A stretch of DNA of 44,764 nt from the NCBI GenBank assembly GCA_025055295.1, contig JANWWW010000006.1:1-44764 (forward strand). Reading direction: 5' to 3'. Both the position numbers and the translations under genes were made by a program. Positions within the stretch are counted from its first letter, which is position 1. Every line of letters begins with the position of its first letter. The notes under the pieces were generated by a model, which was not told the DNA's origin, searched no databases, and saw only the letters and a list, made by a program, of their open reading frames with translations. Positions 1 to 37,718 of this stretch are shown here, piece after piece. Origin of the DNA: Deltaproteobacteria bacterium (lineage in GTDB: Bacteria; Bdellovibrionota_C; UBA2361; JANWWW01).

Positions 1-25
1 TGTTTTCTCGACGACAAATGAAGAT

Positions 26-3000
26 ATGATAAAGTTTAGGGAAGCCGGTTCCCGCTTAGAGCATACCATATTTCTACCTTCAGTTTTTCTCTCTAAAGCT
101 GAAAAAGAGAACTTTTTGTTGACTAAATTTCGAGGGTCCTTAATTGGAAGGCTTTCAAATGGTAGAGTATTGGTAAAGCGATCCGAAACATTGCACGGAC
201 ATTTGATCTCGCACGCCGTGGATAACGACGATTTTGTTGAGGGTGATTATCCCTTTGAGCTATATGCCAAGCAATTGATTCCTTTAATAATTAACAAAAT
301 ACTGCTTAATCAACCAAGCAATCAGCCGCCGGGTTTTCATGACGCGGCAAGCCCAGCAAGCCGAGGAGAAGCTGGTTTTTTTAGACTTTCCAATCAACAA
401 CGAGGTGGCAATGACTTTGAACCACAAGCAGGTGGGGATCAAATCTCTGTTGAATATCCTCAAAGCAATGAGGTCGTAAAAATGCTCGGCTTTGAACATG
501 ATCCTAATCAAAGACCGGCAAATTTTGAGGCCATGCATGCTTCCATAACGTCATTTCTGAGAAAGCTAGGCTATCAAGTTATTGAATTAGACTTATCGGA
601 ACCTCAACCTTTCCCAATGTTTCTTACAAAGCGTCATGCCAATGAGACCTCGTTTTACTCTGAAACCAGCTTTTTGGCGAGCCAGTTGAGAACTATACGA
701 TTTACTAGAAACATTATTTACGCTGGTCACGGCGGTGTGTTTAGTACTAAACCTAGAGGTATGGGTACATTGCAGGTCTATGGATTTTCGGTTCCCAGCT
801 ATCTTTACCAAGACGAGCAAGAACGGTTGTTTGCTCAGTGCATGTTAGCGCACCACATCCGGTATCATTTAACAGGCAGACAACAGTTCAACTCCTTTAG
901 CAATCTAAAGCGGCATTGTGAGCGTAATACAAATGATAGTTATGTCCTTGAAGGTGGAAGAATACGGATCGGTGGCTCGAACGAAAGTGTTGGTTGGTTT
1001 GGTTCACCTTACAGGTTTGTCGTAAATATTACCCCAGACCTATTTCAGACATTCAAGAAAAGTTTCATTTTTGGCTCTTCATGCCAGATGAGAATAAATC
1101 CTGCTCAAGACGTAATCGACAATATTATTCATCAACCTCGTTTAATTTTACAAGATTTTATGGGTGTTAAAGCTACGGACTTCGTATGGGCAAGTTGTCA
1201 GTACGGCAATCCCCACCACTGCCCCACTTTAAACAGATTTACGATCGACTATCAAATAACAAAAGATTTATTCGGGTTAACATATTTCCTACCTGAACTG
1301 CCTCAAGTACCAAGCTGGAATACTAATTCCCTAGGCGAATTATGGGGAGTAGATTCACACTTTTTACATAAATATGCTGAAAATCCCGTTCCTTGTTATC
1401 ATTCCTTTTATAGAGTTGACAATAGAGATAGATTCATCCCTAATTTTGGACAGTTGCTTTTAAACACAAGGGTTAATTTTGCGAACCTGCCAGTCAGTGC
1501 CCTATTGGAAACCATTAATTGTCCGTTTGATTTTAGAATTCCTTATAGAACCTTTGCTGTGGCAGGGGTCCCTCATGTTGGCTTCACGCATGGTATTAAC
1601 GCTGTTAAACCGATACCTGAGTTTTACAACCATGGGTCATTTCACTACAAACTTTTCAGTTTTGAGCACTCTGTTTTGGCTCGAAAATCATACTACACGG
1701 TTGGTTGGTTTGGTAACATTCCTGCTGGAAACGGTCAGACTCTCCATAGCACAATGCCAATTTTGACCTTGGGCTCGAATGACATTCTTCTGCGAAATCT
1801 TCGTAGTCCTGAAACAGGGTTGTTTCGCCACCCTCACTTAGTTGAACGAGGGGAATTTGATGAAAGTGTTACATTTGCGAATAGATTATCAGAGCTTCGG
1901 GTCAATCATTACGAGAACTCGGTCGAAGCAGAGTTTGAGTTGCCTATAATATCGCCAAGTTTATTTTATGTAGGCATTTTAGTTAGTCCAAAAATTTACT
2001 TGAAGAATATAAATGTAAACCGGCAAAAAACTGATTTATCGCGTGTCGTTGTTTCTGGCGCTTCATTTTCCCGAGATGCAAGAGGCATAAAAGTATTCTT
2101 CAATCCAAATGTTGTTAGAATTTTGCCAAAGAAGCATTGGTTATTACCCTTTACAGAATTTGCTAAAACGTATAAGAAAGTGAGATTTCCGGGATCGAGT
2201 CATTTTTACTGGCCTTACTTTCTCGAGTTGCATTTAGGCTCTAACGACCTCGCTGGTAATGCAACGTTTGAGGATCATCAAAACTCTTTCCAAGTTTACA
2301 GAAGATTTTGGGCCTGGCCATTAAGGGATCCGTCTACTATTCAGAACTATAACATGGAGCCATTAACTTTTCGATTTGATGCAAGCTTAAGATCACCGCC
2401 TTACATGGTAGGGCTTAACCAAATTTTTCGGGTGGATCCGATGTTTGTTTATCGTTTAAATGTCGATTCCTTAGGGCAAAAGGATAGACAAAATTATCTG
2501 ATAGTTCGTATTCCTTTGTTGCCAAAGATCACCAAATGTAAAAAAAGGCTTCAACGCGCATGCAGGGAGTTTCAGATCGCAGGCGGACTACGAATTGGTG
2601 ATTTCACATGGGCTGAAGGAGACCCTCCCAATGAAGGCGAGTGCGAAGTGAAAATTTGTGGTGATTGGCCAGACAGATCGACATGCTCATTCGAATTTCC
2701 AGATACGGAAGATCCAAGATCCGCCGAAGATATTTGTGAACTTCAAGGAGCGACTTGTTGTCCCAACCCGGCAACTGGCGCTTGTGGAGAAGAACTGGAG
2801 TGTGAGACAGTTGAAAATTTCTCTTCACATGAAGAATTAGAGACTTTTAAATCCTCATGCGAAGCGAGAGGGGGTAAGTTTTACTCTCACTGTACTGTTG
2901 GCGGATGGGAAAAGAGTTGTTGTTCTGGAGAGCCTGAAAAATGTTCACCTGAAATAACAGAAGGATGTTGTGAAAATGATTCAGGGTCTTCAGGTTCCTC

Positions 3001-3571
3001 TAAAACAGATGACCAAGGGAGTGATCAAGAATGTTCTGGTGAAACTGTAAGCGCTCAATATTTCGAAATAAATGACACAGGCGACATAGAAGTTTTTAAA
3101 TGTCCGGGTGTGGATAGGCCATGCGATGAACCCGAAGACACGCCGACCCCGACCCCCACATTGACACCAACCTTTGGGTCAACCCCTACACCCCAACCGA
3201 GCTACATGCCTACTCGTGTTAAAACCCCGATCATACCCATTCTTCCGCCGGGATGCATCATATGTGACCTTTTGGAATTGGAACCTGGCGAAACGTTTGG
3301 GGGCCTTTGTAATTTAACAGGTGGTAACGGCTCAAATGGTGGCAATGGCAGTAATGGAGGCTCAGGCTCGAACGGAAATTCTGGTTTATCCGGAACAACC
3401 GGAGGATATTTTGGAATTAGCGGTGCTATTGGTTCAAATGGAGGAATAGGCGGCATAACAGGGATCCCAATCCTCAACACACCGACGCCAACAGCCTCAC
3501 CGACGCCCAATGAAAATCCAACTCCTACTCCTATAGCATCGCCAACCCCACTGATTAGTCCTAATGGATAA
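26..3571 (+). CDS. Large modular protein, putative caspase-fold (clan CD-like) peptidase with Cys-rich and Thr/Pro-rich tail, probably 5'-truncated
   Basis: The frame is open to the window edge (codons before the ATG at 26 contain no stop) and the visible N-terminus has no signal peptide, so the true start is probably outside the window. Residues about 170-240 read like a beta-alpha-beta unit ending in IIYAGHGG (His235). A second hydrophobic strand ends in FIFGSSCQ (Cys353). The His-Gly and Ser-Cys pair after two strands is the layout of clan CD peptidases (caspase/gingipain fold), although the 118-residue spacing is long. Residues about 380-830 match no family I know. From about 838 the protein becomes Cys-rich with several CC pairs. 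At about 1037 it changes to TPTPTPTLTPT-type linkers, then to a Gly/Asn/Ser-rich stretch (about 1095-1160), and it ends in another Thr-Pro tract. Such tails suggest an exported, surface-exposed protein. The peptidase assignment is an inference from motifs only. Confidence 0.6.
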   Translation: MIKFREAGSRLEHTIFLPSVFLSKAEKENFLLTKFRGSLIGRLSNGRVLVKRSETLHGHLISHAVDNDDFVEGDYPFELYAKQLIPLIINKILLNQPSNQPPGFHDAASPASRGEAGFFRLSNQQRGGNDFEPQAGGDQISVEYPQSNEVVKMLGFEHDPNQRPANFEAMHASITSFLRKLGYQVIELDLSEPQPFPMFLTKRHANETSFYSETSFLASQLRTIRFTRNIIYAGHGGVFSTKPRGMGTLQVYGFSVPSYLYQDEQERLFAQCMLAHHIRYHLTGRQQFNSFSNLKRHCERNTNDSYVLEGGRIRIGGSNESVGWFGSPYRFVVNITPDLFQTFKKSFIFGSSCQMRINPAQDVIDNIIHQPRLILQDFMGVKATDFVWASCQYGNPHHCPTLNRFTIDYQITKDLFGLTYFLPELPQVPSWNTNSLGELWGVDSHFLHKYAENPVPCYHSFYRVDNRDRFIPNFGQLLLNTRVNFANLPVSALLETINCPFDFRIPYRTFAVAGVPHVGFTHGINAVKPIPEFYNHGSFHYKLFSFEHSVLARKSYYTVGWFGNIPAGNGQTLHSTMPILTLGSNDILLRNLRSPETGLFRHPHLVERGEFDESVTFANRLSELRVNHYENSVEAEFELPIISPSLFYVGILVSPKIYLKNINVNRQKTDLSRVVVSGASFSRDARGIKVFFNPNVVRILPKKHWLLPFTEFAKTYKKVRFPGSSHFYWPYFLELHLGSNDLAGNATFEDHQNSFQVYRRFWAWPLRDPSTIQNYNMEPLTFRFDASLRSPPYMVGLNQIFRVDPMFVYRLNVDSLGQKDRQNYLIVRIPLLPKITKCKKRLQRACREFQIAGGLRIGDFTWAEGDPPNEGECEVKICGDWPDRSTCSFEFPDTEDPRSAEDICELQGATCCPNPATGACGEELECETVENFSSHEELETFKSSCEARGGKFYSHCTVGGWEKSCCSGEPEKCSPEITEGCCENDSGSSGSSKTDDQGSDQECSGETVSAQYFEINDTGDIEVFKCPGVDRPCDEPEDTPTPTPTLTPTFGSTPTPQPSYMPTRVKTPIIPILPPGCIICDLLELEPGETFGGLCNLTGGNGSNGGNGSNGGSGSNGNSGLSGTTGGYFGISGAIGSNGGIGGITGIPILNTPTPTASPTPNENPTPTPIASPTPLISPNG

Positions 3572-5851: not shown

Positions 5852-7177
5852 TCAGCTAAATTCTTCAACAAGCTTTATGTCCCCCTTCTTAACCGCGTCT
5901 ATAAATAAATGCCTCCCAAAAGCAAAAAAAGGATAATGGCTTAAAAAATGCAGAGAGAAATATAAAACGCACGCGACGGAAAAAAAGAACCCCGAAATTA
6001 TTAAAGTGGCATTCCAAGTTGTTAACGTAAAATCGTATCCAAAAACGCTTGGAGCTATTAACAGAAACCTTTCACCATATAACCCAATGACGGCAACGAC
6101 AGCTGGAACAAAAAGCAGTTGCCAATTCTTCTTTACATCTTGACTCAGCAAGGTGAGAAAAGGAAATACGAAACACGATCCGAACACAAACCACATTAAA
6201 ATATTCCACGGATAATCTCTTACCCTTAAAGCTATCCAAGCTGTTTCCTCCGGCAAATTACCATACCATTGAACAAGATACTGAGAAAACGAAAAATAAG
6301 CCCAAAGCATGGCAAAACCGAAAATCAACTTACCTAAATCCCAAAAAAATTGTTGATCAAAATAGGCTGAAATCGGTTTTATGTTTTGTTTTAGATTAAC
6401 GCTCAAGCAAAAACCAAAACACCACGCAAGATAAAGGGACGTTACTGCGTAATGCGCCCCAAAAAGGTTTGAATACCAAATTGGATCCATCCCCATAATG
6501 AATTCAAAACCGAATAGAGACATTGTAACTGCATAAAAAAGTATCAGTATTGGCGCATGCCAGCACAACTGCCTATGCGCTTTTTCATTCTGCTCGAAAA
6601 AGTTTCGTGTTGCGATCCATTTAGCTCCAATATACTCCCAATCTAAATAGTCTCGATGATAGTCGTTCTTGGAAAGAATGTAAGCTATATCCAAACGAAC
6701 GCTTTTCATGACAAACCATGTAGCGTAACAAAGATAAAAGAATAAAAGGCATCCGTTTCTTAAAAACGCAAACCATGGTTGCATATAAAACTCTCTCCCA
6801 GGCAAGCCCTCGCCCGATCCCCAAGGAAATAGTATCTCTTTTCCAAACCAAATAACCCACAAAAGAAAGAATGCCAGCCAGCCCACTATGACAAAAGATT
6901 CGAAGATACGAACTGCAACAGAACTCCACCGAGCTTTTACAACAAGAAGTATCGCCGAAATAGCTGGTCCAGCCATCCCAACGCCCAGCAAATAAACTAT
7001 GATGGTCCAAATGACCGACCAAACCAATTTTTCTTCTTTTCCTAGCAGTCCTAACATCAATAACCCTACCGTCAATACCAGTACCAGTATCAAAAGGCTG
7101 AACTCGGCTTTGTAAAACCGAGCCTTACCGTATTTTCGTAATTCTTCTACAGGTATTTCCTTAAAATGAACATGCAT
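5852..7177 (-). CDS. actF: Alternative complex III subunit ActF (quinol:cytochrome c oxidoreductase, integral membrane)
   Basis: ActF is a NrfD/PsrC-related membrane subunit of alternative complex III, which oxidises menaquinol or ubiquinol and passes electrons to a cytochrome c or an oxidase. The 441-residue protein is built of about ten hydrophobic helices, starting near residue 27 and ending near residue 425. Aromatic, Trp-rich loops (for example FGFEFIMGMDPIWYSNLFGA) are typical of the family. It is the last gene of the act cluster and starts four bases after the actE stop. An AGGGAG motif lies well placed before the ATG at 7177, one of the few clear ribosome-binding sites in the window. 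The usual neighbours, cytochrome oxidase genes, do not follow. Confidence 0.9.
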   Translation of the reverse strand: MHVHFKEIPVEELRKYGKARFYKAEFSLLILVLVLTVGLLMLGLLGKEEKLVWSVIWTIIVYLLGVGMAGPAISAILLVVKARWSSVAVRIFESFVIVGWLAFFLLWVIWFGKEILFPWGSGEGLPGREFYMQPWFAFLRNGCLLFFYLCYATWFVMKSVRLDIAYILSKNDYHRDYLDWEYIGAKWIATRNFFEQNEKAHRQLCWHAPILILFYAVTMSLFGFEFIMGMDPIWYSNLFGAHYAVTSLYLAWCFGFCLSVNLKQNIKPISAYFDQQFFWDLGKLIFGFAMLWAYFSFSQYLVQWYGNLPEETAWIALRVRDYPWNILMWFVFGSCFVFPFLTLLSQDVKKNWQLLFVPAVVAVIGLYGERFLLIAPSVFGYDFTLTTWNATLIISGFFFSVACVLYFSLHFLSHYPFFAFGRHLFIDAVKKGDIKLVEEFS

Positions 7178-7181
7178 AATC

Positions 7182-7700
7182 TCAATCTCCCTTTAACCGC
7201 CTATCCTGCATGTGCCTTATGAAGCTCACAATTGCCCAAGCCTCTTCGTCGGTAAACCTGACACGATACGGATACATTATTTTAGTGTCACCAATTTGCG
7301 GAAAACCATATAAAATAGCGCTGTAAAAATGCCCATCTGGTTTTAGCTTCATATCTTGAGTTGACAAATCCAACCCGTATACGAACGGTTGGACGGCGCC
7401 AGGCTTGTATGAATCAAGATAAACCCCATGACACTGAGAGCAGTTTTTCAAAAACAGCCTTTTACCCTTGAATAACAACCTGGGAGTTACTTCATAGGGG
7501 TTCGATTTAGCTAGTGCTTCTTCAACCGATGGGAACTTTCTCTTGCTTCCATCTGTCGGGACGGATTCTACTGGCTCATCATACATGACTTCGCCTGTTT
7601 TAGGCTGCAAATAAACCATATCCTGGTTGAAAGGCATTGATGTCAATCTGCCTACTAGAAACAAACTAAAAGTGATCCCTAACTTCAACCTCGTCAGCAT
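7182..7700 (-). CDS. actE: Alternative complex III subunit ActE (monoheme cytochrome c)
   Basis: ActE is the monoheme cytochrome c subunit of ACIII and relays electrons on the periplasmic face. A hydrophobic leader (about residues 5-20) is consistent with export. A single heme site CSQCH lies at about residues 97-101, and a Met near MYPYRVRF could be the sixth heme ligand. The 172-residue length is usual. The predicted start at 7700 lies inside the end of actD (35-base overlap). It is supported because the exported leader begins there. Many ActE proteins are lipoproteins, but I see no lipobox cysteine here. Confidence 0.9.
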   Translation of the reverse strand: MLTRLKLGITFSLFLVGRLTSMPFNQDMVYLQPKTGEVMYDEPVESVPTDGSKRKFPSVEEALAKSNPYEVTPRLLFKGKRLFLKNCSQCHGVYLDSYKPGAVQPFVYGLDLSTQDMKLKPDGHFYSAILYGFPQIGDTKIMYPYRVRFTDEEAWAIVSFIRHMQDRRLKGD

Positions 7701-8205
7701 GGCACTTTCTTAATTCTTCAATAAAAAACCTTGCTTCTTCATCAGTGCACTTAAACACCAAACCAAATTTGTCGGCTGAAAATTCGGGTTTATATCCTAG
7801 AGGAGACATAAGGGCCGGAATACAAGTTAGACAAAAGAGACCAAACAAAGTAAACAACCCACCTAACAATATGGTTAGTTCATATCCGACAACCACAAAG
7901 CCTGGAATGGAAACTATTTCCTTCGCACTGGTTCGCAGCGGCCAATCAAGAGACGTCAGAATTGCCAAAGCAAATCCTGAAATCAATCCTAAAGTCGCTC
8001 CCGTGAACGTAAAAATACGAACTTTGCTCCAAAAGTTGGCGCTTGTTTTTTCAACTTCAGGTATTGGACAAGGTGTGTAAACTTTGTAGTCAAGCCCACG
8101 CTCTTTGACCATATCTATCGCTTTCAAAAAATCATCAAGATATGTAAATGTCCCAATTACTAGTCTATTGTCGAAACTTCTTAACGCAATCCTTGAACCC
8201 GGCAT
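7666..8205 (-). CDS. actD: Alternative complex III subunit ActD (DUF3341)
   Basis: ActD is a small membrane subunit of ACIII. The protein has the DUF3341 layout: a soluble N-terminal alpha/beta segment (VIGTFTYLDDFLKAIDMVKE), the family-typical YTPCPIPEVE loop, two transmembrane helices (about residues 60-85 and 100-125), then an LSP-type loop and a C-terminal alpha/beta segment (DEEARFFIEELRKCHADEVEV). At 179 residues the length is normal. It starts one base after the actC stop and overlaps actE by 35 bases, so translation is probably coupled. I see no Shine-Dalgarno motif. Confidence 0.9.
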   Translation of the reverse strand: MPGSRIALRSFDNRLVIGTFTYLDDFLKAIDMVKERGLDYKVYTPCPIPEVEKTSANFWSKVRIFTFTGATLGLISGFALAILTSLDWPLRTSAKEIVSIPGFVVVGYELTILLGGLFTLFGLFCLTCIPALMSPLGYKPEFSADKFGLVFKCTDEEARFFIEELRKCHADEVEVRDHF

Positions 8206-8206
8206 T

Positions 8207-9571
8207 TTAATGTTTCAAATTTTTTGGATCTCTAACTGGGGGTGGTAATATCTCCTTAATCTCTGTTATTGCAACACTCGGGAAAAATTTGATAAACAAT
8301 AACATCCACATCCCGAACCAACCAAAGCTGCCCAAGAGTATGCCTAATTCTACCCAAGAGAAATTGTAATGTCCCCACGAAGATGGAATGTAATCCCTGT
8401 AGAGACTTTGAAGAATAATGTTGTACCGCTCGAACCACATACCGATATTGATAATTATGCTTAATATGAACAAAAAAGGAATGTGAGTTCTTAAACGTTT
8501 GATCCACAGAAATTGCGGGAAAACAACGTTACAAACAAACATGATCCAAAAGTTTACTGCTAATTCCCCCGTCGGCCTAAAGTAAAACTGAAACCGCTCG
8601 AATTTGTTGTTGCTCCACCAAGCAACATAAAACTCAGTTATGTACGCGTATCCAACTATACAACTGGTGACAATTATAAGCTTTGACATCGCGTCAAAAT
8701 GCTCAGCCCGGATCAGGGGCTCCAAATTGTATGCTTTGCGAAGCGGTATGAGCAAAGTTAAAACCATTGCAACCCCTGAGAAAATGGCACCTGCCACAAA
8801 GTATGGCGGAAATATAGTGGCATGCCACCCAGGAATTACACTTACAGCGAAGTCCCATGAAACAACGCTATGAACAGATACCACAAGCGGCGTAGCAAAC
8901 GCAGCAAACAAAAGATAAGCAGATGTGTAATGCTTCCATCTTTCCGCATCGCCCCTCCAACCCAAAGAAGCTACAGAGTATAAAAACTTTCGAAACTTAG
9001 TTTCCGCTTTATCTCTAGCAGTCGCAATGTCAGGCAACAAACCTACAAAGAAAAATACACTTGAAATGGTTAGATAAGTTGATACTGCAAAAACATCCCA
9101 TAACAGTGGACTCCTAAAATTCGGCCACAGTTGCATTTGATTTGGATAAGGAAGTAACCAGTAAAAGGTCCAGGGCCTACCAAGGTGTATGATCGGAAAA
9201 AGCCCAGCGGTTATAACCGCAAAAACCGTCATAGCTTCGGCAATACGGTAAATAGGCATTCGAAACTTTGCCCTGAAAAGGTATAGCACAGCTGAAATCA
9301 GAGTGCCTGAATGGGCAATACCCACCCAGAAAACAAATGTTGTTATATAAACTCCCCAGTTAACAGGATTTGACTTACCAGAAGAACCTATACCATTCAA
9401 AATTTGGTACGTCCAACAACTTACTCCGACTGCAAGACATGCCAATATGACTACGAAAAGTATATACCAATTAACCGTCGGCGGTTTTAAAGTGTTGAGA
9501 ACAAGCTTGTCGACTAACCTGTAATCAACTCTTGACTCTAGCGAATGATTAATTTCCGACGATATCGCCAT
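8207..9571 (-). CDS. actC: Alternative complex III subunit ActC (NrfD/PsrC-like membrane subunit)
   Basis: ActC is the main quinol-binding membrane subunit of ACIII. The 454-residue protein has about ten transmembrane helices. The segments NWGVYITTFVFWVGIAHSGT and FPIIHLGRPWTFYWLLPYPN are characteristic of the polysulfide reductase NrfD family in ACIII. The charged residues of these first helices are thought to form the quinol site and proton pathway. It starts two bases after the actB stop and ends one base before actD, so it is clearly part of one transcription unit. Confidence 0.93.
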   Translation of the reverse strand: MAISSEINHSLESRVDYRLVDKLVLNTLKPPTVNWYILFVVILACLAVGVSCWTYQILNGIGSSGKSNPVNWGVYITTFVFWVGIAHSGTLISAVLYLFRAKFRMPIYRIAEAMTVFAVITAGLFPIIHLGRPWTFYWLLPYPNQMQLWPNFRSPLLWDVFAVSTYLTISSVFFFVGLLPDIATARDKAETKFRKFLYSVASLGWRGDAERWKHYTSAYLLFAAFATPLVVSVHSVVSWDFAVSVIPGWHATIFPPYFVAGAIFSGVAMVLTLLIPLRKAYNLEPLIRAEHFDAMSKLIIVTSCIVGYAYITEFYVAWWSNNKFERFQFYFRPTGELAVNFWIMFVCNVVFPQFLWIKRLRTHIPFLFILSIIINIGMWFERYNIILQSLYRDYIPSSWGHYNFSWVELGILLGSFGWFGMWMLLFIKFFPSVAITEIKEILPPPVRDPKNLKH

Positions 9572-9573
9572 GT

Positions 9574-12495
9574 CTAAATTTTAAAAACATAATCTGCCAA
9601 GTAGGTGACAGATGGTTTAGTGTTCACATACTCGTCGATCAGTTTCCATGCACGTTCTGATCTAGAAACTTCGCTAACTTTTGAGCCCGGGTCGTTAAGA
9701 TTACCAAAGACGATGGCATCTGCAGGACACGCCTGCTGACAAGCCGTTTGAATTTCCCCGTCCCGCGGAAGTCTTCCCTCCTTCTTTGCTCTGAATTTAC
9801 CTTCATTGATCCTTTGGATGCAAAAGTTACACTTTTCCATCACCCCAACACCTCTTTTAGTTACATCAGGATTAAGCTGGAGCTTCAGTGTATCCGGGAA
9901 ATCATATTCGAACCAATTAAATCTTCTCACTTTATAGACACAGTTATTCGCGCAATATCTTGTGCCAACACAACGATTATAAATCATTGCGTTCAATCCT
10001 TCCTCATTGTGATATGTTGCGTATACCGGACAAACAGGCTCGCAAGGCGCATTGTTACACTGTTGACACATGAGAGGAAGCCAAACTCTTCTTACAGAGC
10101 CATCAGAAAGAGGCTTGTCATAAGTATGAATTGAAATCCAAGGCATACGCCTTCCCTGAGCTGAAATTCTTGGGCCAACAACAGGAATGTTATTCTCCGC
10201 GTAACAAGCCACAACACAAGCCGAGCATCCAGTACACACAGACAAATCTACCGCCATACCCCACTTAAAAATGGGGTGCTCCCTCTGCTTGTAAAGATCA
10301 ACCTTCTCGTGGTGATGCTCATGGTAATCGAAAGGTTTTAATTGTTCAAGAGTTGGACTAAGCTCTTTGACATCTACTATCCTTCGACCATGTTCTGACC
10401 TTGTAACCTGAGATTGATAAGCTTTTTTATAAGAAACAACTTTTTTTATCTTAAACGATGTATTTTTAAATTCTCCCGTATTTTCGTAATCAAACAAAAG
10501 AAAACCGTTTGCTTTTTTGACAAGCTTTGCAAATGAAAGAGATTTTGAACCATCCGAAATTCCAACTGGGACACCTAAAACTCCATCTTGGATCAGAGTG
10601 TTGACAACTACCTGAGCCTCAATTTCTCCAAATTTAGTAGAAACTAAAACTATATCTTTGTTTTTTAGTTTTAGTTTTTTTGCAGTTCGCGGACTGAGTT
10701 CAATCCATGTATCCCAACAAACAAGAGATACAGGATCATGAAGCTCAAGAAGCCATGATCTATTCTGGCACCTGCCATCCCAACTTTTAATTGACCCTAT
10801 CGGTAGCAGTGTAAGCTTTTTGTTGTCGTTAAGATTAACTGCTCTTATGGTGTTCTTTAACTCTATTTTAAAGTTTTGCAGTAACGGTCTCTGAACCTTA
10901 TTGGGAAATATAACATACCCCCTCTCCAAAGCATCACTCAAGGAACCTGTTTTTAAGTATCCCGTGACTTCATCCTTCCAAAATTCATCAGAAGCTTTGT
11001 ATTTGGCAAGGACACTTGATGGAGATAAAACAGAGATTAATGCCAATAAATAATCCCCGAAAGGTCTTGTCTTAAAGAGATTTAACATAGCTGGTTGATT
11101 TAATGAGACAATATTCTCTTTTAGACTAAAACTAAAGCTCTCAAGAAAATGATTTAAAGGCAAAATTATGTCTGCAATTTCACAAGTTTTGTCTAATACG
11201 TCGGCAAATACTACCACGAGTCCCGGCTTAACGAGTTTGTTTAATTCGGATATCGAATTCGATGCCGGAAGAAAATGTGCGTAATTACCCTTGACTAACA
11301 AAACAGCTCCTTCTCCTTTTAAATTTTTTACACGAAGTAAGACGTCCTGAACTTTACCGTAATTTGACCTGAAAGCCGGGCCTCCCCCTAAGATGACACT
11401 CTTTCCAATGTTACCTAAACAATAATTAATTAACAAACAAGTTCTTTCCAACAATACCTTAGGCAAAAACTTAGCCTGCAGACCTCCGCCGAGTACGACG
11501 GAACTTTTTGAAGAAAGCAACGTGGCAGCTAAATCAGTTACCACTCCTCTTTCTATACCCGATTCTGAAATTAATTCATCCTCGTCAATCGAATTGAGTT
11601 CACTCAAAACATTGTCAGGCAGAGTACGTTCATCCTTCAGCTTCACAATGAACTTAAGTAGTGCTAGAGCCACAAGGTGTTCTGTATTCGGTTTGATTTT
11701 GATCCATTTATCAGCCTTGGAACCCGTTAAAGTTTGCCTTGGCTCAATTTGAAAATGGTAACAGAGTTTATTTTTTCGCATGTAAGCCCATTGTTTTGTG
11801 AATTTAACTGGGTTCAACCAATATTCTAAAAACTCAGCTCCAAAACTAACGATCACCTGAGCCTGTGTTAAATCGTAAGTTGGAGCCCTGTTAACGCCGA
11901 AAATGTCTAACGAGGCTTTTTGTAAATCTGAGTGATTAAAGGGCTCGTACTGAGCCTCAATGAAGCCTAAATCCTTACAAAATTGATCGTAAATTTTTTG
12001 GTGCAGGTCGTCCAACTCTGAGCATAAAAAAAGACGGTTTTTCGAGTTTTTTAAAGCGGTGGCGATTTTGGATAACGCGTCATTGAATCCTATCGGCTTA
12101 AAAGTTACTATAGGATTGCCAATCTCATCAGTTGTCTCCACTCTCTCAAGAGGCTCTCTGACCCGATTAGGATCATATAAACCCTGCACAGATGATTGAC
12201 CCAAGGCGCAAGTACCACCTTTGCTAATCGGATCCAAAGGATTGCCTTCCACTTTTATAACGCGACCTTCTTTAGTTTCTACCAATATCCCGCACCTTGC
12301 TGAACATTCAAGGCATGTCGAAGCATAATATACACTGTTTCCAGGAATAGCATACTCTGGATCCTTAAAATGAGGATAAATGTTTTCTATCCTTGAGTCG
12401 GCGCATCCAACTATGGAAGCGCATCCTAAACCAACCAAAAACTCCCTTCTTGAGACGACTTTTTTTTCGGATTTTTTCCCGATACCAACCAACAT
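9574..12495 (-). CDS. actB: Alternative complex III subunit ActB (molybdopterin-oxidoreductase-like domain fused to iron-sulfur domain)
   Basis: ActB carries electrons from the quinol site through iron-sulfur clusters. The N-terminus has a Tat motif SRREFL (15-20) and a lipobox IVGC with Cys31, so it is probably an exported lipoprotein, as known for ACIII. The large first domain resembles molybdopterin oxidoreductases; in characterised ACIII it holds no Mo cofactor. The second domain (about residues 700-973) has ferredoxin cysteine clusters: CTGCSACVVAC, CQQCNNAPCEPVC, CVGTRYCANNC, CNFC and CQQACPADAI. This fits three [4Fe-4S] clusters and one [3Fe-4S] cluster. Unlike what I recall for some studied ActB proteins, the first domain keeps C61-x2-C64-x3-C68-x27-C96. 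At 973 residues the length is normal. Confidence 0.93.
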   Translation of the reverse strand: MLVGIGKKSEKKVVSRREFLVGLGCASIVGCADSRIENIYPHFKDPEYAIPGNSVYYASTCLECSARCGILVETKEGRVIKVEGNPLDPISKGGTCALGQSSVQGLYDPNRVREPLERVETTDEIGNPIVTFKPIGFNDALSKIATALKNSKNRLFLCSELDDLHQKIYDQFCKDLGFIEAQYEPFNHSDLQKASLDIFGVNRAPTYDLTQAQVIVSFGAEFLEYWLNPVKFTKQWAYMRKNKLCYHFQIEPRQTLTGSKADKWIKIKPNTEHLVALALLKFIVKLKDERTLPDNVLSELNSIDEDELISESGIERGVVTDLAATLLSSKSSVVLGGGLQAKFLPKVLLERTCLLINYCLGNIGKSVILGGGPAFRSNYGKVQDVLLRVKNLKGEGAVLLVKGNYAHFLPASNSISELNKLVKPGLVVVFADVLDKTCEIADIILPLNHFLESFSFSLKENIVSLNQPAMLNLFKTRPFGDYLLALISVLSPSSVLAKYKASDEFWKDEVTGYLKTGSLSDALERGYVIFPNKVQRPLLQNFKIELKNTIRAVNLNDNKKLTLLPIGSIKSWDGRCQNRSWLLELHDPVSLVCWDTWIELSPRTAKKLKLKNKDIVLVSTKFGEIEAQVVVNTLIQDGVLGVPVGISDGSKSLSFAKLVKKANGFLLFDYENTGEFKNTSFKIKKVVSYKKAYQSQVTRSEHGRRIVDVKELSPTLEQLKPFDYHEHHHEKVDLYKQREHPIFKWGMAVDLSVCTGCSACVVACYAENNIPVVGPRISAQGRRMPWISIHTYDKPLSDGSVRRVWLPLMCQQCNNAPCEPVCPVYATYHNEEGLNAMIYNRCVGTRYCANNCVYKVRRFNWFEYDFPDTLKLQLNPDVTKRGVGVMEKCNFCIQRINEGKFRAKKEGRLPRDGEIQTACQQACPADAIVFGNLNDPGSKVSEVSRSERAWKLIDEYVNTKPSVTYLADYVFKI

Positions 12496-12496
12496 A

Positions 12497-13147
12497 TCAG
12501 TAATGACACGAAAAACAGTCTATGCTCGCTCCCCTCTGCCTGTGACACTCGATACACCAGCCCATCTTCATGCTACTTACTCTTTCCACTACTGGCATTT
12601 CAGCAACCTGACCGTGACACTCATGACACCCCACTCCTCCACGAACATGAGCTTCATGGTTAAATTTAACATAGGCTGGCTGAACGTGCACTTTAATCCA
12701 AGGAATTTGCTCTCCTTTGTTGAAAAATTCAAGCAGTTTTTTTATTTCTCTATCCCATTCCGGCTTTTCGGAAGATTGGACTTGACTGTGACAATTCATG
12801 CAAGACTCAACACTGGGAAGAGCGGCATATGGACTTTTGTCGACACTCCAATGGCAATACGTGCAATCCATCTTAAGCTTTTGGACATGAACGACGTGCG
12901 AGAATTTTATTGGTTGAGCCGGTTTATACCCCTTGGCTCTCTCATACGCTCCAAAAAGCCGAAAATAATCTATTAAATCAAAATCCCATGGAGCAGCCTT
13001 GCCATTATTAAACACACCCGTTAGTTTACCAATTACATAGTAATCTTCATACCGGTCTAATTTATCCAAAGGTATTTCAAACTCTATCTGTAGATTTTTT
13101 TCCTGGCACATTAACCATAACAGTAGAAACAAACCAAACCTTACCAT
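12497..13147 (-). CDS. actA: Alternative complex III subunit ActA (pentaheme cytochrome c)
   Basis: ActA is the multiheme cytochrome c that exits electrons from ACIII. Exactly five CxxCH heme sites are visible: CTYCH, CMNCH, CHECH, CIECH and CFSCH, the last almost at the C-terminus. A conserved pattern of extra histidines (HVVHV, FNHEAHV) would supply distal ligands. A short hydrophobic N-terminal segment (about residues 3-14) can serve as signal or anchor. It is the first gene of the act cluster, one base before actB. It is divergent from acetoacetyl-CoA synthetase, with only 59 bases between the starts to hold both promoters. Confidence 0.92.
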   Translation of the reverse strand: MVRFGLFLLLWLMCQEKNLQIEFEIPLDKLDRYEDYYVIGKLTGVFNNGKAAPWDFDLIDYFRLFGAYERAKGYKPAQPIKFSHVVHVQKLKMDCTYCHWSVDKSPYAALPSVESCMNCHSQVQSSEKPEWDREIKKLLEFFNKGEQIPWIKVHVQPAYVKFNHEAHVRGGVGCHECHGQVAEMPVVERVSSMKMGWCIECHRQRGASIDCFSCHY

Positions 13148-17324: not shown

Positions 17325-17693
17325 TTATACCACCTCTGGTGCTAAACTTATGATTTTCATAAAATTTTTTTCTCGTAATTCTCTTGCAACCGGTCCAAAT
17401 ATTCTGGTTCCCACTGGGTCACGTTGTTTGTTAATCAAAACACATGCGTTTTCGCTAAAACTTAAAGCACTGCCATCCGGGCGCGTAAATTTCCTTTTGA
17501 CCCTTACAACCACAGCGTCAACTACCGCGCCTTTTGGGATTTTAGATGTCGGATGAGCTGAGCGCACTGAAACTTTAATTATGTCGCCAACGGTTGCATA
17601 CCTTTTTTTAGATCCACCAAACACGTGAAAACAGACAACACGGGTCACCCCGGAGTTATCACAAACCTTTAGTCTGCTTTTCAACCCAATCAT
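17325..17693 (-). CDS. rplN: 50S ribosomal protein L14 (uL14)
   Basis: L14 binds 23S rRNA at the subunit interface and is also the docking site of the silencing factor RsfS, encoded at 30270 in this window. The 122-residue length and the sequence are canonical: an N-terminal [49 protein letters not shown] and the terminal [10 protein letters not shown]. It follows rpsQ after 36 bases. The rest of the spc operon (rplX, rplE, rpsN and others) does not follow. Confidence 0.97.
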
Positions 17694-17729
17694 AAGTGGC
17701 TAATTTTTACCATTAAATAACGAGCAACT

Positions 17730-18026
17730 TCAATCCTGCAGAGGGATAAATTCATCTGAAACACGGGATAAATTATTTCGAACATCGCGTAAAATTTTTG
17801 CTAGATACCATGACTTGAGTTTTGAATATGGTCTACCTTCTTTGATTAATACTTTGTCCCCAACCTTTGCTTCCTCTTTCGGATCATGAGCGAGAAAAAC
17901 TTTTCGTCTTTTTATATACTTTTTGTATTTAGGGTGTTTTATTAGAGTTTCCACCAAAACTCTTATGGTTTTTCTCCCACTTATTCTTTCGACAACTCCA
18001 ACCCTACTCTTTACAATTCGTTTCAT
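17730..18026 (-). CDS. rpsQ: 30S ribosomal protein S17 (uS17)
   Basis: S17 is a primary 16S rRNA-binding protein of the OB-fold type. The body matches the family: RVGVVERISGRKTIRVLVET, HPKYKKYIKRRKVFLAHDP and the signature region VGDKVLIKEGRPYSKLKSWYLAKIL. The start is set at the ATG at 18026; an ATG at 18038 would add four residues. At 98 residues it has a C-terminal extension of about 12 residues compared with the usual 80-90. rpmC (L29) and rplP, normally just upstream, are missing; a YggT gene lies there instead, 82 bases from the upstream ATG at 18038. Confidence 0.95.
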   Translation of the reverse strand: MKRIVKSRVGVVERISGRKTIRVLVETLIKHPKYKKYIKRRKVFLAHDPKEEAKVGDKVLIKEGRPYSKLKSWYLAKILRDVRNNLSRVSDEFIPLQD

Positions 18027-18120
18027 CGACGGATGCATATTTTACTTTAAGGTATGTTCAAATTTCAAATCGCATGGGCGACTTAAAAAACAAAATTGCA
18101 AACATTTCTAAAATTGATTT

Positions 18121-18429
18121 TTAAAGGCTCATGAAATATCTAGCAGACTCCCGTAAAAGAGACACAGAAAACTCTTTTACGAAAACTAGCAAAAGAAAAG
18201 CTAAAAGATAAGCTATGTCTATCGGAAAACTTCTTATAGGATAGGGTAAAATTTTTCTTATAGGACGGACTAAAGGTTCTGTAGTGTCGTAAAGGAGCCT
18301 CACGATCGGATTATATGGATCAGCTGACACGAAAGATGTGATGGCCCGCCCAATAAAAAGGAACAACCAAATATTAAAAAAAATATCAACAACTGATGCC
18401 AAAGCTTTGAGAAAGTTTCCTAAAATCAC
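18121..18429 (-). CDS. yggT: YggT family membrane protein
   Basis: A 102-residue protein with two hydrophobic segments (about residues 10-32 and 70-92). Between them is the family hallmark TTEPLVRPIRKILPYPIRSF. YggT proteins are small inner-membrane proteins implicated in osmotic tolerance and, in some bacteria, in division and membrane organisation; the mechanism is unclear. It lies 18 bases downstream of the biotin carboxylase stop on the same strand, followed by rpsQ, so all four genes could share a transcript. Confidence 0.88.
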   Translation of the reverse strand: MILGNFLKALASVVDIFFNIWLFLFIGRAITSFVSADPYNPIVRLLYDTTEPLVRPIRKILPYPIRSFPIDIAYLLAFLLLVFVKEFSVSLLRESARYFMSL

Positions 18430-18447
18430 TGCTTAAAAGTATAAAGT

Positions 18448-19893
18448 TTAGGCCAAGTTTAAATCAATTTTTAGAAAATCGTTTTCTTTTTTGAAGCGAA
18501 AACATCCTTTAAATACCCCTCCTCCTTGATCAGACGAAAGCGAGTCACTCAACGCCTTGTTCAACAAATTGAACCTATTGTCATCTTTCCACTCTTTAAG
18601 TTTGCTTTCAAGCCAATCTGTGTGGTGACTGTTGGATATGAAATCATGAGTTGTCAAGATTAGTAACAGCAAAGCTTGGTTTGTTTCTACCCCTCTAATC
18701 TCAAGATCCATCAAAGCCCTTATAGCTTTTTTTAGGCATTCTCGCCTATCTTTTGCAGACACAATTAATTTTGCAACGAGGCTGTCAAAGTGGGAATTAA
18801 CCACCGTTCCTTGAGAGTAAGTGGCCTCAACTCTGGAAGCAGGATATTTCAAATTCTCAAAAATGCCCTGAGCTGGAAGAAGGTCAAGGCCTTTTTCCGC
18901 ATTGATCCTTAGCTGTATGGAATGTCCAACACATTTTGGATCTACGTTGAAAGACTCATTCATGGCAATCAAAAATTGCAAATTTACTATATCCACATTA
19001 AAAATTTCCTCAGTTACGGTGTGTTCAACCTGCAACCTTGGGTTTATCTCCAAAAAATAAAGCTGATCACCTTCATACAAAAACTCCACAGTGGCAACAC
19101 CAAAAAAGTCGATTGAGTTAAAATAATTTTTAATTCTTTCAGATGTCTCCAGGACTAACCGTTCCTCGATAAAGGCCGGTGCCTCTTCTATGATTTTCTG
19201 AAATCTACGTTGAATAGTACAGTCCCTTGTGCCTAGGATAATCGCATCTTTGACTTTTGGTTTTACGACCTGAAATTCAACATGTCGGGCCTTTTCGATT
19301 AACTTTTCGACAAATACAGCTGGCACGCCAAAGTTGGCAGCCTCCTTGCTAGCTTGTTCGAGATAAATTTGCAACTCATTTGGGCTGTAAACCTTGCGCA
19401 TTCCACGTCCACCTCCACCCCACTGTGCTTTGACAATAATAGGGCTGTGAAGTTGGACCCACTTTTCCAATGACTTTAGGTCATCAGAAAGAGATGCACT
19501 GGGTATCAAATTAAAAAATCCTTTTACGGAGTTCTTGCACGCTTCCTTATTGCCACATAACTCTAGATGTGTATCGGAAGGACCGATAAAAACAATACCA
19601 TTCTCTTGACAGGCTTTACTGAGTTTTGGGCTTTCGCTCAAGAAACCATAACCCGGATGAAGAAAATTGCAGTTGAAAAATTTACATAAATTGATGATGA
19701 AGCTTGTATCCAAAAAATAGTTATGCTCTTGTTCGTCAAATTCCACAAAGCCGTCGAGAACTTGTTTGTAATCTAATCCTAAATCGCCACGCGGTACCAT
19801 TCCGAAAACTGCAAAGCCGAGGCGCCGCGCCGATTGGACAATTCTTTTAACGATTTCGCCTCTGTTCGGTATAAAAAGCCTGCGATGTTTCAT
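18448..19893 (-). CDS. accC: Biotin carboxylase subunit (AccC-like, ATP-grasp)
   Basis: The enzyme carboxylates biotin on a carrier protein using ATP and bicarbonate, the first half-reaction of acetyl-CoA or acyl-CoA carboxylases. Visible signatures are NRGEIVKRI near the start, HPGYGFLSE, the ATP-grasp loop WGGGGRGM, RDCTIQRRFQKIIEEAP and EINPRLQVEHTVTEE, which carries metal and bicarbonate ligands. At 481 residues it is about 30 longer than E. coli AccC. The extra sequence is at the C-terminus, without a biotinyl (AMKM) domain. No carrier protein or carboxyltransferase gene is nearby, so the substrate (acetyl-, propionyl- or another acyl-CoA) cannot be told. The substitutions EINPRL and PNRGE suggest a divergent branch. 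Confidence 0.85.
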   Translation of the reverse strand: MKHRRLFIPNRGEIVKRIVQSARRLGFAVFGMVPRGDLGLDYKQVLDGFVEFDEQEHNYFLDTSFIINLCKFFNCNFLHPGYGFLSESPKLSKACQENGIVFIGPSDTHLELCGNKEACKNSVKGFFNLIPSASLSDDLKSLEKWVQLHSPIIVKAQWGGGGRGMRKVYSPNELQIYLEQASKEAANFGVPAVFVEKLIEKARHVEFQVVKPKVKDAIILGTRDCTIQRRFQKIIEEAPAFIEERLVLETSERIKNYFNSIDFFGVATVEFLYEGDQLYFLEINPRLQVEHTVTEEIFNVDIVNLQFLIAMNESFNVDPKCVGHSIQLRINAEKGLDLLPAQGIFENLKYPASRVEATYSQGTVVNSHFDSLVAKLIVSAKDRRECLKKAIRALMDLEIRGVETNQALLLLILTTHDFISNSHHTDWLESKLKEWKDDNRFNLLNKALSDSLSSDQGGGVFKGCFRFKKENDFLKIDLNLA

Positions 19894-25883: not shown

Positions 25884-26912
25884 TTATTGTTTTAGTTTAG
25901 CATAAGAAACAGCTAGAGAAATAAAAATTAAGAAACTCAGCCATATGCATAAAAGTATTCCAAAGCCAATTACAAAAAGCCATTGACCCCTGAACTTTGA
26001 CCTTTTAAAAACATCGAGTAACTCGCATATATCTCGCTGACAAGTATCTTCTATTCCGAAAAGGCCAAATTTTTCAAGATGGTAAACGAACAGTAGAGGA
26101 TAAAGCCTTGCTTTCTCGACGTGGGCTTTTTGCCAAAATTCATTCTCACGAAGAATGAACACCGAGTTAACTTCACTCTCTTTTTTAAAATCAAAAATAT
26201 ACTTGTTAATGAGGCCTGTAAATTCAATAGACTCCACAAAACGTTTAAATTTAGATTGATTTCTCACATACTGCCGATAATGCCCTATTAGATCTTTTGC
26301 CACCTCAATGTGAAGGCCTCTTTGTCTCTTTAAAAGCATCGCAACGTATTTCACCTTTACTGCTTTAACAGAAAATCTATGCCAAGGAATAAAAGTCCCA
26401 AGTAATCCGTCACGTAAATTTTCCGCCCGGGTTACAACACCCACAATATTGCCGTTATCATCGAAGACTGGACTCCCGCTTGCTCCAAAACCTAGCCTCG
26501 ATGAAATCACATACATCAATCTGGAGTTCCACTTAATCCTGCCATTTTTAATAGTAAATTTTTCACCTTTGTAGACCGGAATCAAAACACGACCTTTTTT
26601 GTAATGATAGTTAAAATTCTCTCTTAACTTAAACCCGCCAACGCGGAACTCATTATCTAGACATTCAAGAACTGCAAGATCAGCCATCGTCAGATACCTT
26701 CTTATTTGCAATTTTTTACATCGACTATTGGATAATGAAAACTCCCCAACGCAATCTCTTTCGGTACAATTTTTCAAGACAAAATGAAAAGGAGCTATTA
26801 TCTTGCCCTCAACCACGAAGCCGGTGGCTCTAGAGATTCCCGATAAGACCCCAACAAATTCAAGATTTTGACAAAAAAGCCCTAGCCAACTTAACAAAAG
26901 CAAAAAAAACAT
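25884..26912 (-). CDS. Membrane-anchored trypsin-like serine protease
   Basis: The product probably cleaves proteins outside the cytoplasm. A hydrophobic leader (residues 2-14) ends with a Cys. The protease domain shows a possible catalytic triad: His43 in IIAPFHFV, Asp78 in MADLAVLE (as in HtrA-type DLAVLK), and Ser145 in GFGASGSPVFDDNG. GASGSP replaces the usual GNSGGP. The segment after Ser145, NIVGVVTRA, is typical of the fold. The region after residue 185 is helical with no PDZ domain. A transmembrane segment follows near the C-terminus (about 318-337), so the domain is likely anchored in the membrane at that end. It is translationally abutted by def. The substrate is unknown. Confidence 0.75.
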   Translation of the reverse strand: MFFLLLLSWLGLFCQNLEFVGVLSGISRATGFVVEGKIIAPFHFVLKNCTERDCVGEFSLSNSRCKKLQIRRYLTMADLAVLECLDNEFRVGGFKLRENFNYHYKKGRVLIPVYKGEKFTIKNGRIKWNSRLMYVISSRLGFGASGSPVFDDNGNIVGVVTRAENLRDGLLGTFIPWHRFSVKAVKVKYVAMLLKRQRGLHIEVAKDLIGHYRQYVRNQSKFKRFVESIEFTGLINKYIFDFKKESEVNSVFILRENEFWQKAHVEKARLYPLLFVYHLEKFGLFGIEDTCQRDICELLDVFKRSKFRGQWLFVIGFGILLCIWLSFLIFISLAVSYAKLKQ

Positions 26913-37079: not shown

Positions 37080-37718
37080 GTCTAATTGATTGTGTAAATT
37101 ATAACATCCTTGTTCACCTTGGTTAACCAAAATTTGAAGTTGTTTGTTGATAATATACCAGTTAGGAATACTGTGTTTTGACCACCTCTAGTAAAGGTCT
37201 AAGTAAACACCATAACATACCTTAAGTAGCGCCTTCTCTGATGGCATTGACCTTTTGGCATATAACACCTTCCTTAGCTTGCTGTTGACACTCTCGATGA
37301 CATTAGTAGTCGTAATAAGTCTTCTAAGCTCAAACGGATACTTGAAAAAGGATGTTATGCCTTGAAAGTCCTTCTCCCACATCTTGACTACATCTGGATA
37401 TTTACCATTCCACTTAGCCTTAAACTCCTTAAGCCCTTCCTCAGCCTCTGACACCGTTGTGGCTCTATAGATTACCTTCAAGTCCTTTACCACCTGAAAC
37501 CTATCTTTTGCCGATACCTTCTTCATACTTTCTGACCTTCGGAGTTTCTTTTATACTGCTTAGCCTCTATGGCAGTTTTAGGCTCTACTAGCAGAGCTTG
37601 AGATATGGTTTCTTGTAAAAACCTTTTAAGAGCATTCATACTATCTTATCTTGTCGTGTCTCGTTCCTTTCATAAAATCGATACTTTCCATACACTACAT
37701 TCACAGAAATAAAGGGAC
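37080..37718 (-). mobile_element. Internally deleted IS256-family insertion sequence
   Basis: A remnant of about 640 bases, where IS256 elements are normally about 1.3 kb. Both ends of the transposase are still readable and lie next to imperfect inverted ends. GTCTAATTGATTGTGTAAATT at 37080-37100 can be compared with the complement of the right end (GTCCCTTTATTTCTGTGAA, read inward from 37718), with about 13 of 21 positions matching. The left end resembles the TTGTGTAAA-containing ends of IS256. I could not find a clear target duplication. The boundaries are inferred. Confidence 0.55.
37100..37639 (-). pseudogene. IS256-family (Mutator) transposase, deleted, frameshifted and interrupted by a stop
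   Basis: The N-terminal 38 codons (37523-37639, LKRFLQETISQALL) fit the start of IS256 transposases and end in TGA. The C-terminal part begins in another frame at 37526 (ATGA overlap). It reads KDRFQVVKDLKVIYRATT, WNGKYPDVVKMWEKDF, FKYPFELRRLITTTNVIESV (which keeps the catalytic Glu) and NSKLRKV. About 230 internal residues carrying the two catalytic Asp are missing. A TAG follows at 37188-37190, after which the same frame continues as RWSKHSIPNW and QLQILVNQ, the normal family C-terminus. No active transposase can be made. Confidence 0.85.

Follow-up and report, generated by a model that had tools for sequence, protein, structure and literature searches.

Gene A and its surroundings

The window analysed here is the whole of contig C106 (44,764 nucleotides) of a draft genome comprising 1.76 Mb in 139 contigs and 85% complete. 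Its first feature is an open reading frame on the forward strand (2..3571), which reaches the contig edge with its 5' end cut off and encodes at least 1189 residues of a large orphan protein, A (P0001). The ATG at position 26 (ATG26) is probably internal and not the true start, as no stop codon separates it from the contig edge and a paralog from the same genome, B, has ∼240 more residues upstream. Residues are numbered here from the open frame at base 2, which gives His243 and Cys361 for the two residues of main interest; in counts from ATG26 they are His235 and Cys353.

Downstream of its N-terminal part, protein A contains a family-specific middle domain (residues 492-845; 1475..2536, forward strand), which is the best conserved part among the paralogs, as seen in BLASTP comparisons with B and a further paralog, C, and in their alignment. 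A single-sequence AlphaFold model of residues 490-873 consists mostly of strands, at low confidence (pLDDT 30). The middle domain is followed by a Cys-rich segment (residues 846-1041; 2537..3124, forward strand), which by alignment is common to A and paralog C. The protein ends with a tail of low sequence complexity, composed of Pro/Thr and Gly/Ser/Asn stretches (3125..3568, forward strand). The tail of paralog C is of low complexity too, but different, being rich in Asn/Ser/Thr.

The reverse strand of the window carries several further features. A run of genes at 5852-13147 resembles alternative complex III, with a multihaem cytochrome, a large molybdopterin/FeS protein, NrfD-like membrane proteins, and a monohaem cytochrome; for the cytochrome and molybdopterin/4Fe-4S members there is confirmation from Pfam, and the others were read from the sequence. 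At 17325-19893, rplN and rpsQ have unusual neighbours for this part of the ribosomal operon, being preceded by genes for a YGGT-family membrane protein and a biotin-carboxylase-like protein. Positions 25884-26912 encode a membrane-anchored trypsin-like peptidase (Trypsin_2, E 6e-8), adjoining a gene that reads like peptide deformylase. Finally, a remnant of a Mutator-family transposase is found at 37188-37526, matching the last 110 of the 379 positions of the Pfam model.

Paralogs and probable export

The family to which protein A belongs comprises two or three genes, the other members being incomplete and located on contigs C54 and C68 of this genome. Paralog B (C54, locus L006) is 961 aa long, with the start present and the 3' end cut, and paralog C (C68, locus L007) is 609 aa long, with the 5' end cut and the stop present. 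In BLASTP, residues 528-1040 of A are aligned with C at 25% identity (E 4e-29), and the homology with B is confined to residues 492-567 of A (E 5e-9). There is also a weak match upstream, between residues 7-41 of A and 249-284 of B, which alone is not significant. The genes of B and C overlap by 346 bases with 88% nucleotide identity, pointing to recent duplication or strain variation as the cause of the breaks in the assembly. The dN/dS ratio in the overlap is 0.076, indicating purifying selection on the family. C54, C68, and C106 each carry their fragment of the family at a contig end.

The first-pass annotation had described A as an exported protein. Nothing in the window itself makes this visible, and the support comes from two other features, the Cys-rich, low-complexity C-terminus and the N-terminus of B, which has a signal-peptide-like stretch, FNTVLHFRFLLVFLHVAV. 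Given such a start in B, export of the family is likely, and from this we infer export of protein A itself.

Candidate caspase-like region

The candidate region spans residues 148-410 of A (443..1231, forward strand), its layout having been read from the sequence by eye. It was proposed in the first-pass annotation from two motifs 118 residues apart, AGHGG and GSSCQ, and both the letters and the coordinates given there are correct. The histidine, His243, lies within IIYAGHGG (codon CAC, 728..730, forward strand) and has His507 as its counterpart in B; the cysteine, Cys361, lies within FIFGSSCQ (codon TGC, 1082..1084, forward strand), with Cys569 as its counterpart. The hydrophobic stretches said to precede both residues are also present, as TRNIIYAGHGG and KKSFIFGSSCQ, each with the motif at its end. 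The proposed beta-alpha-beta start needs revision, as SITSFLRKLGYQVIELDL is better read as a helix followed by a strand; still, a possible first strand, EVVKML, is found upstream, from position ∼473.

With this strand included, the elements as judged by eye would be EVVKML (strand 1), FEAMHASITSFLRKLG (helix 1), YQVIELDL (strand 2), SETSFLASQLRT (helix 2), NIIYAGHGG (strand 3), an insertion, TPDLFQTFK (helix 3), SFIFGSSC (strand 4), PAQDVIDNII (helix 4), and RLILQDF (strand 5). On visual inspection, this putative order is the right one for clan CD, and the ∼83 residues from strand 1 to the His are an ordinary length.

Between the His and the Cys, protein A probably carries an insertion of ∼56 residues without a counterpart in B (785..955, forward strand, the exact borders being a guess), the spacing of the two residues being 118 in A and 62 in B. 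If the caspase-like hypothesis holds, this insertion is the reason for the unusual spacing in A. The inserted segment holds Cys280, Cys306, and a cluster of histidines (CMLAHHIRYH...RHC). Metal binding or a disulfide bond is possible for such a Cys/His cluster.

The alternation of helices with hydrophobic strands over residues 150-410 would also suit some other enzyme-like alpha/beta domain, either a Rossmann-like binding domain or a hydrolase of a different His-Cys or thiol type, in which the His, the Cys, or both have a role other than that of a clan CD dyad. Indeed, a His-Cys dyad is used by three other cysteine-peptidase clans as well (PMC12445089). We consider such a domain improbable, as the Gly beside the His and the endings of the strands in HG and in C point to a layout like that of clan CD, and no match to any other enzyme family was found in the searches described below.

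The motif pair in paralog B and its chance level

To describe the motif pair, we used a scan for a strand-like segment with [GASTN]HG followed by a strand-like segment with [GASTQ]C at a distance of 20-150 residues. The scan finds such pairs in 14 of 17 real bacterial C25/C14 domains from other genomes, with spacing 34-61 when the best pair of each is taken; three of the C14 domains have a second pair too, at 31 or 76. Protein A has one pair. By itself this pair is unusual but not compelling, since pairs also occur in 4% of whole-sequence shuffles of A and in 4 of the 460 other ORFs of at least 200 aa (665 kb of the same genome).

More weight comes from paralog B, which with A makes up the two family members covering the region. 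B has a single comparable pair, with His507 in AILNAHG and Cys569 in VLFTGC. When the segment between the anchors in B was shuffled, any pair arose in 1.9% of cases, and a pair at the distance expected from the upstream anchor, itself a weak match only, in 0.4%. All frequencies obtained with the scan are optimistic, as both motifs were already known when it was designed. In a MAFFT alignment of the trimmed regions of A and B, His fell on His and Cys on Cys unprompted, whereas in the alignment of the full-length pair the motifs were misaligned, and therefore this correspondence is fragile. Of the checks named in the first-pass annotation, conservation of the two residues among homologues gives partial support, in that B has a comparable pair at the corresponding place, but the similarity does not extend to the surrounding sequence, as neither local nor global alignment of A with B over the candidate region gave a similarity above that of shuffles. 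The conservation of the putative dyad comes from this one comparison, A with B.

The same observations bear on a different reading, in which the His and Cys motifs are coincidental and A is no enzyme but an orphan protein of the cell surface or the extracellular space that evolves fast. A mixed N-terminal region would be followed by a strand-rich middle domain, then by a disulfide-rich segment and a low-complexity tail, and the whole would perhaps serve as an adhesin or a cell-surface coat protein. The contrast between the motif region, aligned at chance level between the paralogs, and the middle domain, aligned above it, speaks for coincidence, as does the Cys-rich C-terminus of low complexity. 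On the other hand, coincidence does not easily account for exactly one motif pair in both A and B, in the corresponding place and at a low background rate. We give this reading close to even odds.

Similarity searches and structure prediction

Searches against Pfam, NCBIfam, PADLOC, PHROGs, and PDB produced no match passing the threshold, and no peptidase or clan CD protein. In particular, Pfam had no match in A to C25 (PF01364, screened at E ≤ 10) or C14 (PF00656), and no match to CHAT (PF12770) was found in A or B. No C25, C14, or CHAT proteins were found elsewhere in the genome, and no C25 members in the phylum. A match to YARHG (E 0.007-0.04) covering ∼25 residues and ending just past the HG motif was sub-threshold, below the cut-off of that family, and was rejected.

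Home-made profiles did not separate the candidate region from controls. With hhalign, residues 148-430 of A scored 24.2 against the C25 profile, which is the control level, the best of 60 random ORFs having scored 23.2; against the C14 profile, A ranked 19 of 69, among the random controls. In the best C25 alignment of A, the His strand was matched and the Cys was not. Hence the profile search proposed in the first-pass annotation as a check came out negative, both in the library and PDB searches and with our own C25/C14 profiles, and this lack of homology to any peptidase again favours the coincidental reading. An AlphaFold model of residues 141-449, computed without an alignment, had a mean pLDDT of 31, which is too low to read the His-Cys distance.

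Homologues of the family were searched for more widely. In sets of 58 and 383 other genomes, the larger including 46 of the phylum, none were found beyond the paralogs in the same genome, and none were found in phages and plasmids. Two scans each of viral contigs and of genome contigs, which depend on short peptides and detect close relatives only, also yielded none. Two matches were rejected, one in genome G001 (E 0.086), which overlies ATP synthase genes, and a weak one in genome G038 (E 0.09). The family is an orphan and lineage-specific, seen in one genome of an uncultured phylum. Presence in a single genome of a phylum is typical of fast-evolving surface proteins, which is a further point for A as a non-enzymatic protein.

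Proposed function

Among functional mechanisms, an exported caspase-like thiol peptidase is best supported, although the non-enzymatic alternative is slightly likelier overall. The motif pair in one divergent paralog raises the peptidase above a proposal from motifs only, the case still being mostly one of motif layout, and we regard it as a plausible lead and a reasonable, not yet established hypothesis, with a probability of about 0.4.

Under the peptidase hypothesis, the N-terminal half of A would be a very divergent caspase/haemoglobinase-like thiol peptidase domain, with His243 and Cys361 as the catalytic dyad and ∼56 extra residues inserted between them. Cys361 would attack the peptide bond, and His243 would protonate the leaving group. 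The peptidase would act outside the cytoplasm, by self-cleavage or by cutting other surface or substrate proteins, and the strand-rich middle domain together with the Cys-rich, low-complexity tail would carry or display it.

A broader claim, which we consider rather doubtful, is that the family represents a new clan CD family lying beyond sequence profiles. It would be a large exported caspase-like peptidase with a Cys/His insertion separating the catalytic His and Cys, joined to strand-rich and disulfide-rich domains specific to the family, and would occur only in a single lineage of an uncultured phylum. If so, a family invisible at the sequence level would be added to a protease clan with members controlling cell death, toxin release, and secretion, and uncultured bacteria would be shown to have clan CD folds hidden in their orphan exported proteins. 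If not, A would be one more fast-evolving orphan surface protein, and an example of the HG...C layouts that arise by chance in ∼1% of ORFs.

Comparison with clan CD peptidases

In MEROPS clan CD, strands 3 and 4 of a parallel sheet end in the His and the Cys, respectively, and a Gly lies beside the His (PMC4357240, PMC12445089). The sheet of this caspase/haemoglobinase fold has the strand order 2-1-3-4. The order of the two residues, His before Cys, is the same in A (His243/Cys361) and in B (His507/Cys569), this being an agreement in order only, with catalysis putative. The Gly is also present, on both sides of the His in A (AGHGG) and only after it in B (NAHGV). The spacing, a usual and not strictly defining property of clan CD, is 34-61 in the 14 bacterial C25/C14 domains; A falls outside this range with 118, and B has 62. 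As the profile tests failed, A cannot be assigned to a known family of clan CD.

Like A, the C25 gingipains (PF01364) are large multidomain bacterial proteins with a strand ending in GHG followed by a strand ending in C, and the His strand of A, IIYAGHGG, aligns with LIDYIGHGN of C25. Unlike A, they have a His-Cys spacing of 34-49 in the domains measured here, and their Pfam family has no match in A. The C14 caspases, metacaspases, and orthocaspases (PF00656) share with A the proposed start, strand-helix-strand-helix-strand-HG. The ∼83 residues from strand 1 to the His in A compare with 77-88 in four bacterial C14 domains, measured there as the position of the His in the matched domain, and the spacing of 62 in B adjoins the maximum seen in C14, 61. 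However, Pfam gives no match of A to C14, and the hhalign score is at the control level. The CHAT proteases (PF12770) are similar to A in the general order of the dyad, but match neither A nor B.

A precedent for such a case is the sporulation peptidase YabG, which has no sequence similarity to the members of clan CD but has been proposed to belong there (PMC12445089). The dyads of YabG have been tested experimentally and are spaced 46 (PMC12445089), whereas A is known here from its sequence alone. Still, YabG shows that a peptidase with a His-Cys dyad can be a candidate for clan CD without detectable sequence homology (PMC12445089).
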